Positions 5,784 through 7,850 of a DNA stretch of 64,000 nt are shown one piece after another. Source of the stretch: Acidobacteriota bacterium (GTDB lineage: Bacteria; Acidobacteriota; Terriglobia; Terriglobales; Acidobacteriaceae); contig JABCZI010000003.1 in the NCBI GenBank assembly GCA_013289765.1, positions 124,001 through 188,000 of the forward strand, read 5' to 3'. The notes below the pieces were generated by a model. The model was not told the DNA's origin. It did not search any database and saw nothing but the letters and a program-made list of their open reading frames with translations. The position numbers were made by a program, and so were the translations under genes. Within the stretch, counting starts at the first letter, position 1, and each line of letters starts with the position of its first letter.

Positions 5784-7850
5784 ATGGACCTTCCCCAGAA
5801 AATCCGCAGTATCCCCACCGAGCCTGGCGTGTATCTGTACAAAAACGCCGAAGGCGAAGTCATTTATGTGGGCAAGGCGAAGAACCTGCGCAGCCGCGTC
5901 GCCAGCTACTTCCACGAGGGCCGGTGGGAAGATTCGAAGACCGGCACGCTGGTGCGCCAGGCCGTAGATGTCGACTATATTGTGGTCGCCAACAACAAAG
6001 AGGCGCTTGCGCTTGAAAACAATCTGATTAAGCAGCGCAAGCCTCGCTTTAACATCCTGCTGCGCGACGATAAAACTTATCCCTACGTGAAGCTGACGCT
6101 GAGCGAACGATGGCCGCGGGTATACGTCACGCGCCGCTTGCGCAAGGACGGCAGCGCCTATTACGGCCCGTACTTCCCGGCGAACCTGGCTTACCGCATT
6201 GTTGACCTGATCCATCGCAATTTTCTGATTCCATCCTGCAAGGTGGATCTCACGCGCTTTCATCCTCGGCCTTGCCTCCAGTACTACATCAAGCGTTGTC
6301 TCGGGCCGTGCGTGAAAGAACTGACCACGTCTGAGGCCTATCAGGAAGCCGTGCGCGACGTGAAGCTTTTTCTGGAAGGCCGGCCAACAGATTTAAGCCG
6401 CTCCCTTCACGAACGCATGGAACAAGCTGCCGGCGCTGAGGAGTACGAGCGCGCGGCGCGATACCGCGACCTGATTTCCACCGTCGAGCAATTGCAGGAG
6501 CGGCAGCGCATTGCGGCAGCGGAAGGCGATGACGCGGACGTATTCGGCTATCACTATGAGAATGGGATGCTGGCCGTAAATTTGTTCCATATGCGCGGGG
6601 GGCGCGTGGTTGATCGTCGCGAGTTCTTTTGGGAGGACTTGCCGGAATTCGCACCGGCGCGTTCCGGCGTGGAAACGAATGAGACGTTGGCTGGTCCCCT
6701 TCTACCCTGTCATCCTGAGGGGACGCCATTGGGCGCCGAAGGATTTGTGCACTCTGCCGGCAGTGCCGCTTCTGCTGGCGCCAGCATAGCCGCCGACGAC
6801 TCCATAGATCCTTCGGCCCGCCAAAAACGCGGGTCTCAGGATGACAAGGCGATCGATGGCCAGGCGATCGATGACGACGCGAGTTTTCATCCCGGCGAAT
6901 TCTTCTCCGCCCTTCTCAAGCAGCTCTACATCGGCCAGCCTTATGTCCCCCGCAATCTTTATGTCCCGGTTGATTTCGAGGATCGCGCCGAGTTGGAGGA
7001 CCTGCTCTCCGAGCAAGTCGCGGGCGGGGGCGCCCGCGCCACATCTGTCCACATTCTGGTGCCGCAGCGCGGGGACAAGCGTGCGCTCATCGACCTTGCC
7101 GGCACGAACGCCAAGCAATCCTACGACCAGCGATTCCGCGTGCTCAAACCAAACGCCAGAAAAATTCAGGAAGAGTTGCAGGAGACTCTTAGCCTTCCCG
7201 AATTGCCAAAGCGCGTCGAGTGTTTCGACATCTCGCACATTCAGGGCGCTGAGACCGTGGCTTCGATGGTGGTCTGGGAAGATGGCAAGATGAAGAAATC
7301 GGATTACCGAAAATTCATCATTCGCACAGTCGATGGCGTAAATGATTTCGCTTCGATGTGCGAGGTGGTGATGCGCCGCTACAAGCGCGTGCAGCAAGAA
7401 AAGAAGCCCATGCCCAGCCTGGTGCTGATTGATGGCGGCCTGGGACAATTGCATGCCGCCGCCGAAGCGCTGGAATCACTTGAAATCATTAACCAGCCGC
7501 TCGCCGCGATCGCCAAGCGCGAAGAGATTCTCTACGTCTATGGACAAGAGAAAGATCCGATTGCGCTTGATCATCACTCGCCGGTGTTACACCTGATTCA
7601 ATTGATTCGCGACGAGGCTCACCGCTTCGCCGTAACCTTCCATCGCAAACGCCGGCAAATGCGCGACCGTTCAACGGAATTGCTGGAGATCCCCGGCGTC
7701 GGCGCAAACACAACTCGCCGTCTTCTTGAACACTTTGGTAGCCTGCAGGCGGTGAAACAGGCGGACCCGGCCGCGCTGTCAGCGGTCGTGACCCGAGTGC
7801 AGGCGGAAGCAATCAGCAATCACTTTCGAAAAATAGCCGCCACCGATTGA
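5784..7850 (+). CDS. uvrC: excinuclease ABC subunit C
   Basis: 688 residues. UvrC makes both incisions in nucleotide excision repair. Domains in order: GIY-YIG nuclease (residues 12-95, PGVYLYKNAEGEVIYVGKAK), the Cys region CLQYYIKRCLGPC, a UVR motif near 210-240, the RNase H-like 3'-nuclease core (about 450-580, with CFDISHIQGAETVASMVVWE and VLIDGGLGQLHAA), and C-terminal helix-hairpin-helix motifs (IPGVGANTTRRLLEHFGSLQ). The protein is about 70 residues longer than usual. The excess falls at about residues 308-354, where the DNA is a palindromic repeat element read through in frame (see separate feature). Apparently monocistronic. Confidence 0.97.
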   Translation: MDLPQKIRSIPTEPGVYLYKNAEGEVIYVGKAKNLRSRVASYFHEGRWEDSKTGTLVRQAVDVDYIVVANNKEALALENNLIKQRKPRFNILLRDDKTYPYVKLTLSERWPRVYVTRRLRKDGSAYYGPYFPANLAYRIVDLIHRNFLIPSCKVDLTRFHPRPCLQYYIKRCLGPCVKELTTSEAYQEAVRDVKLFLEGRPTDLSRSLHERMEQAAGAEEYERAARYRDLISTVEQLQERQRIAAAEGDDADVFGYHYENGMLAVNLFHMRGGRVVDRREFFWEDLPEFAPARSGVETNETLAGPLLPCHPEGTPLGAEGFVHSAGSAASAGASIAADDSIDPSARQKRGSQDDKAIDGQAIDDDASFHPGEFFSALLKQLYIGQPYVPRNLYVPVDFEDRAELEDLLSEQVAGGGARATSVHILVPQRGDKRALIDLAGTNAKQSYDQRFRVLKPNARKIQEELQETLSLPELPKRVECFDISHIQGAETVASMVVWEDGKMKKSDYRKFIIRTVDGVNDFASMCEVVMRRYKRVQQEKKPMPSLVLIDGGLGQLHAAAEALESLEIINQPLAAIAKREEILYVYGQEKDPIALDHHSPVLHLIQLIRDEAHRFAVTFHRKRRQMRDRSTELLEIPGVGANTTRRLLEHFGSLQAVKQADPAALSAVVTRVQAEAISNHFRKIAATD
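6708..6846 (+). repeat. palindromic repeat element inside uvrC
   Basis: Bounded by a perfect 12-bp inverted repeat, TGTCATCCTGAG (6708-6719) and CTCAGGATGACA (6835-6846). Nested inside is a second inverted pair, CCGAAGGAT (6736-6744) and ATCCTTCGG (6808-6816). The element contributes about 46 residues to UvrC without breaking the frame. Low-complexity Ala/Ser/Gly residues (SAGSAASAGAS) come from its middle. It looks like a dispersed intergenic-type element that entered a gene. Confidence 0.8.

Follow-up and report, generated by a model that had tools for sequence, protein, structure and literature searches.

A class of tagged REP units is strongly associated, as judged from sequence, with a gene encoding a GIY-YIG nuclease in bacteria of several phylum-level groups. 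The window, i.e. the whole stretch of DNA analysed (64,000 nucleotides; G000:C3:124001-188000), holds such units within a coding sequence, and the insert in its uvrC gene is a real in-frame, non-autonomous palindromic element, a fresh case of a known kind. We consider it quite probable that this insert is a non-autonomous TGTC/CGTC REP-like element and that a GIY-YIG nuclease mobilises units of this type. The gene and its insert comprise:

5784..7850, plus strand: uvrC, 688 amino acids, identified from its ORF and Pfam domains; the insert is residues 309-355.
6708..6846, plus strand: REP dimer lying in frame, with two TGTC-tagged units in inverted orientation on either side of a spacer.
6708..6746, plus strand: left unit, consisting of TGTCATCCTGAG, a GC-rich inner part and CCGAAGGATTT.
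6747..6806, plus strand: spacer separating the left and right units.
6807..6846, minus strand: right unit, inverted, consisting of TGTCATCCTGAG, a CCCGC..GCGGG hairpin and CCGAAGGATC.

The original prediction of a 139-bp segment read through by uvrC, with inverted pairs of 12 bp (outer, perfect) and 9 bp (inner), was borne out at 6708-6846. The outer arms, TGTCATCCTGAG (6708-6719) and CTCAGGATGACA (6835-6846), pair perfectly (15 nt at 93% with the flanks included), the inner 9-bp pair sits within a 20-nt pair of 80% complementarity (6735-6754 with 6798-6817), and the ORF at 5784-7850 is open and in frame across the segment. A TGTC tag is present at either end and the unit pattern, TGTC-ATCCT...AGGAT-C in two inverted copies, is REP-like. 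The insert does lie between the UVR motif and the nuclease core, as had been proposed, the domain order being UVR motif (residues 208-236), insert (309-355), best PF22920 stretch (365-449, beginning at profile position 37) and RNase H core (466-617); a single-sequence structure model of this UvrC had a mean pLDDT of 36 and was not interpretable. The proposed figure of about 46 extra residues needs correction: 139 bp is not a multiple of three, and the excess of the linker is larger, amounting to 207 bp (69 codons) over the shortest complete same-genus linker read (L065, from G007) and 237 bp over the shortest outgroup linkers. The gene had also been called an essential repair gene, whereas uvrC is usually not essential.

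The fold of the insert beats 200 of 200 shuffles, with z scores of -3.8 (DNA) and -5.0 (RNA). The strong RNA fold would suit excision of the copy from the transcript or ribosomal bypassing, either of which would give a protein without those residues, but this is very improbable: no Rfam family reached its gathering score in 6600-6950, where one sub-threshold hit fell outside the element, and skipping is not needed because the frame is open. A known RNA family was rejected as an identity for the insert on the same Rfam result.

The arm, which had been thought to look like a dispersed repeat, is one. The 4.8-Mb genome contains 51 copies of its core, GTCATCCTGAG (27 and 24 by strand, both uvrC arms counted), against a single occurrence of the reversed control, and a genome-wide comparison of the complete 139 bp gave its own full match and three partial matches. 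The genome copies share a unit made up of TGTCATCCTGAG, an inner part that is usually a hairpin but variable in sequence, and GAAGGAYC; the outer stem, (A)TCCT/AGGA(T), measures 4-5 bp and encloses the inner hairpin. Units occur as inverted pairs, as in the uvrC copy, L002 and L004, or singly, and many stand alone. Among the 40 units with both ends found, one of which is the right unit of the uvrC insert (6807..6846; L027, z -2.6), 32 folded at z < -2, with a mean of -3.4 (RNA parameters, 60 shuffles each). On each strand, two of the three frames of the consensus unit are free of stops, so that its insertion in frame is easy. Other in-frame copies in the window's genome were sought as hits with at least 80 amino acids before and at least 60 after them, and three ORF contexts emerged from the 53 hits (51 sites, some of them counted twice because they fell in two loci): the two uvrC arms and L021, judged spurious by eye. 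An A-type pair was also seen in frame in G015 (L328:1929-2067), within an ORF named by eye as methylase-like; the frame in which it is read matches that in uvrC.

A search for UvrC covered 61 genomes, including 36 other members of the genus, and linker sequences were taken from the loci fetched. Of the 37 genus genomes, five did not enter the comparison: in G009, G021 and G035 no UvrC hit was usable, and the contigs of G017 and G032 were broken. The 32 same-genus loops, labelled by eye, comprised nine with the window's family (A), one with a decayed A, 17 with a second family (B) and five with neither, and two of the nine A-carrying loops (L037 and L040) also have a B-type left arm. Families A and B are both absent from 14 of 14 aligned outgroup UvrCs, and in 22 of 32 same-genus rows the stretch is replaced or absent, in agreement with the expectation that relatives' UvrC would lack the segment. 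An insert that is open and in frame, with a related stretch in nine same-genus UvrCs, might be taken for a native UvrC linker conserved as protein and palindromic by chance, but this reading was rejected, and given practically no probability, on the 51-fold dispersal of the arm and on the loop comparison.

In a tree of UvrC with the linker excluded, where 17 of 43 inner branches are weak, sister sequences alternate between A and B; family A required 7 changes (equally low in 52 of 500 shuffles) and family B 10 changes (equally low in 13 of 500). This alternation, together with the mixed occupancy of the loop, leads us to read the uvrC loop as a site of repeated turnover, apparently a hot spot. 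Family B (ATGTGGGGAC..) is palindromic, with a second hairpin that is variable in sequence and seems to keep its pairing, and is dispersed in G019, where a 14-base pattern has 44 copies against 0 for the reversed control; in the 17 same-genus uvrC loops it likewise lies in frame.

Examples of family B: L375-L404 (G019) and the uvrC linkers L041, L047 and L051.

Family B was rejected as a REP of Y1 genes, with 0 copies at 30 Y1 loci. In the uvrC linkers L039 and L047 the spacer appeared by eye to be alike in A-type and B-type inserts, as if the arms had been swapped.

The window's genome has one PF01541 match apart from UvrC, and units stand around that gene, whose product is a GIY-YIG nuclease of about 100 amino acids. 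In L330 (G000:C1) a second GIY-YIG copy, truncated and about 877 bases beyond the match to the upstream gene, adjoins an intact one and is preceded by the unit type of the intact copy. A search for PF01541 covered 45 genomes of the genus; apart from UvrC, its stronger matches were read as loci, and 18 matches scoring ≤39 bits were left aside. A [CT]GTCATNNNGA tag was present in the near flanks (about 260 bp upstream or 330 bp downstream) of 81 of the 84 GIY-YIG ORFs of at least 70 amino acids found in 81 loci, and on both sides of 72, seven shorter ORFs being omitted from this count; of 105 control cases with windows shifted by 850 bp, 26 had a tag on at least one side and 2 on both. The three tag-less ORFs belong to one divergent subfamily (L101 twice, L315), and an earlier tag test of 29 genus loci had found the tag at 25. 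A strict hairpin rule (stem ≥7) was passed by 2 of 24 genus loci, few because the outer stem that encloses the inner hairpin has about 5 bp.

Beyond the genus, one scan of a named genome collection yielded 559 relatives, the best 80 of which, not a random sample, were read as named loci and span about nine phylum-level groups according to their record titles. A tagged hairpin lay within 250 bp of the GIY-YIG gene at 69 of these best 80 of 559 and on both sides at 45 of 80 (six of the 80 having a flank under 250 bp), against 11 of 141 and 0 of 141, respectively, in control windows 1 kb away. The tag with two stem bases read CGTCAT in 72 and TGTCAT in 31 of the 114 nearest units, and the tag of the nearest unit faced outward at 43 of 57 upstream and 42 of 57 downstream positions, a tendency that was weaker at the genus loci (41 of 79 and 48 of 74). 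A tblastn search of plasmids gave 36 records, and 14 of the 16 regions read have tagged hairpins or inverted repeats beside the gene, five of these (L180, L184, L185, L186 and L187) having been missed by the first motif and recognised by eye. The flanked plasmid regions come from Cyanobacteriota, Bacteroidota and alpha-, beta- and gammaproteobacteria, flanking being one-sided in those of Photobacterium and R. tumorigenes, and the two of 16 without units are both from Bacillota (Subdoligranulum and B. subtilis yazA). Regularly spaced arrays of tagged units were seen to adjoin the GIY-YIG gene in L177 (Photobacterium) and L105 (G013). Units flanking a GIY-YIG locus of N. gonorrhoeae resemble dRS3, which is equated with CGTC-1 in the available part of PMC3733652. 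The top phylum-wide PF01541 hits were mostly of other subfamilies and unflanked, the strict rule finding flanks at 1 of 26, and by eye 4 of 28 such loci were flanked (L148, L163, L171 and L172).

The linked proteins match PF01541 and have an almost invariant Y, Y, R, E and N, which we take to be catalytic-type residues. The model of the L191 protein had a pLDDT of 93, and its nearest solved folds were UPF0213, the UvrC N-terminal domain and Slx1, none with E ≤0.001. The last two of these are structure-specific nucleases, and the linked protein might thus be a host nuclease that processes palindrome cruciforms, with units gathering beside its gene for regulation or through selection and spreading by other means. 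The persistence of units in genomes where the cognate gene was not found would agree with this, but the patchy presence of the gene at one site and the ends of homology between copies at unrelated sites both speak against it, and we think it unlikely.

As regards the ends, where copies at unrelated sites are compared, their homology tends to break off at the tags. In 180 pairs from 78 loci, which are not independent, 100 of 360 homology-block ends had a tag no more than 7 bp away in each of the two non-syntenic copies, against a mean of 8.5 and a maximum of 18 under a random null; L279 and L313 (both G023), for example, match at 83% over 540 bp, with ends at 0/0 and +6/+7 from the tags. As regards presence, a variable site 3' of a putative ABC permease gene (by eye) had matches in 39 of 45 genomes, 30 of which were read, and the gene there may be present, absent or of another type. 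A CCTGAG-type gene occupies it in four genomes (G000, G015, G031 and G034, the last with an internal stop), a remnant in G009 and a CCCGAC-type gene in G026 (in tandem) and G012, and there is no gene in 23 of 30, L345 being without downstream sequence and L336 having only 484 bp of it. In G011 (L337) the element is absent and a short gap leads to the same next gene, identified as such by its match to what lies past the element in L331, L339 and L355. Gene order 3' of the site differs in other genomes, and no target-site duplication could be defined there, the species being too diverged.

The GIY-YIG proteins formed eight clades at 70% identity (80 labelled proteins of 82), five of them with a prevailing unit label (CCTGAG in 14/14 and in 8/9, CCCGAG in 8/8, GCTGAG in 9/9 and TTCCGAA/TTCCGAC in 12/13) and three mixed. 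Nearest-neighbour proteins shared the unit label in 60 of 80 cases (2000 shuffles: mean 11.5, maximum 23), and agreement dropped to 10 of 80 when neighbours were restricted to <70% identity. Common descent of the gene and its flanks could also yield clade-matched labels, and clade specificity alone is no proof of recognition because gene and units may be co-inherited. Dispersed units were more numerous in genomes with the cognate gene than in those without, for GCTGAG (median 11.5 vs 2, p = 5.7e-4) and for TTCCGAA (median 17 vs 7, p = 0.047), gene presence being scored from fetched loci only and in partly incomplete assemblies; several genomes have many units and no cognate gene found among the fetched loci. 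The cognate gene thus accounts only partly for the numbers of dispersed units, clearly for GCTGAG and weakly for TTCCGAA.

The units might instead be spread by RAYT (Y1 family) transposases, with the GIY-YIG gene as a passenger. Y1 genes are present in 43 of 45 genus genomes, and RAYTs are proposed as agents of GTAG REPs in the portion of PMC3733652 available, but the Y1 loci, read as the best one per genome, are nearly free of units: 4 sites were found in 30 loci with one mismatch allowed, the tag test gave none among the 19 of these 30 having full flanks, and the hairpin test gave 1 of 19. Nor, so far as its available text goes, did the same survey find CGTC units flanking any tyrosine transposase gene. 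We therefore regard Y1 mobilisation as improbable, and rejected the RAYT/Y1 transposase as the linked gene, its loci being almost without units.

Under our preferred reading, mobilisation by the GIY-YIG nuclease, the enzyme would recognise the tagged hairpin of its own unit type and cut close to or at the tag, after which the tag-to-tag segment would be copied into new sites by the replication or repair machinery of the host. Spread could occur in cis, with the gene, or in trans, as dimers or single units such as the uvrC copy, and that copy would survive because the unit is stop-free in two of three frames and the loop is length-variable and tolerant of inserts. The route is incomplete, GIY-YIG nucleases not being known to rejoin DNA. 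We also favour, with less assurance, the broader proposal that the TGTC/CGTC palindromes of many phyla (RPE-4/6, dRS3 and the uvrC insert) are one mobile class with a single-domain GIY-YIG enzyme.

If the GIY-YIG nuclease is indeed the enzyme of CGTC REPs, a large body of bacterial repeats can be put to the test, each nuclease bringing its own predicted substrate and clades with differing tags providing built-in specificity controls. It would also offer a route to in-frame palindromic inserts like that of uvrC, and to some RPEs as well if the same holds in Rickettsia. The available part of the 2013 survey (Di Nocera et al., 2013; PMC3733652) left the spread of CGTC-tagged REPs open, there being no transposase gene beside them. 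As far as searched, the association of REPs with a GIY-YIG gene is undescribed: no paper among the matches listed links the two, preprints lying outside the search, and PMC12306157 and PMC6006769, both citing PMC3733652, have no mention of GIY-YIG among the matches listed from their partial texts.

In the text available, PMC3733652 names five phyla for CGTC units and describes CGTC/TGTC-tagged REPs, including Neisseria dRS3 and Rickettsia RPE-4/6, as having no dedicated transposase. The same text gives RPE-4 and RPE-6 of R. conorii as CGTC-tagged REPs, and the comparison with Rickettsia made in the original prediction goes beyond analogy, the uvrC unit resembling such REPs. RPE-1 is likewise a palindromic element found in frame within genes and differs in being called longer there, only RPE-4 and RPE-6 being named as CGTC-tagged in what is available of that paper. 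The CGTC-tagged REPs described there are like the genus family in their CGTC/TGTC tag, AT stem start and, for copies such as those of uvrC, L002 and L004, inverted pairing, and like the uvrC case in being intergenic and sometimes in frame, including in excinuclease genes, so that the uvrC insertion is not new in kind. The uvrC insert has one of the tags of that class (CGTC, TGTC or CCTC) and is dispersed (51 copies vs 1 for the control), but in the genus family a variable inner hairpin is enclosed by a short outer stem, 4-5 bp in the window's genome, where CGTC REPs have a stem of 8-9 bp from AT and a loop of 4-5. Because of this stem the uvrC copy is REP-like and related rather than a strict CGTC REP. 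The class also differs here in being flanked about a GIY-YIG gene, where the survey, in its available part, reports no dedicated enzyme.

Free-standing GIY-YIG homing endonucleases are alike in being small GIY-YIG genes present or absent at one site; the loci described here, in which no intron or intein was seen, differ in being bounded by tagged palindromes that also occur free of the gene. In REPIN-RAYT systems, as at the GIY-YIG loci, inverted REP units flank one gene whose product is proposed as the mover. The units here do not flank a Y1 tyrosine transposase gene, the arrangement that defines REPIN-RAYT, but a GIY-YIG nuclease gene, and their tag is TGTC/CGTC rather than GTAG; if our reading is true, they would form a counterpart of REPIN-RAYT built on a different nuclease fold.
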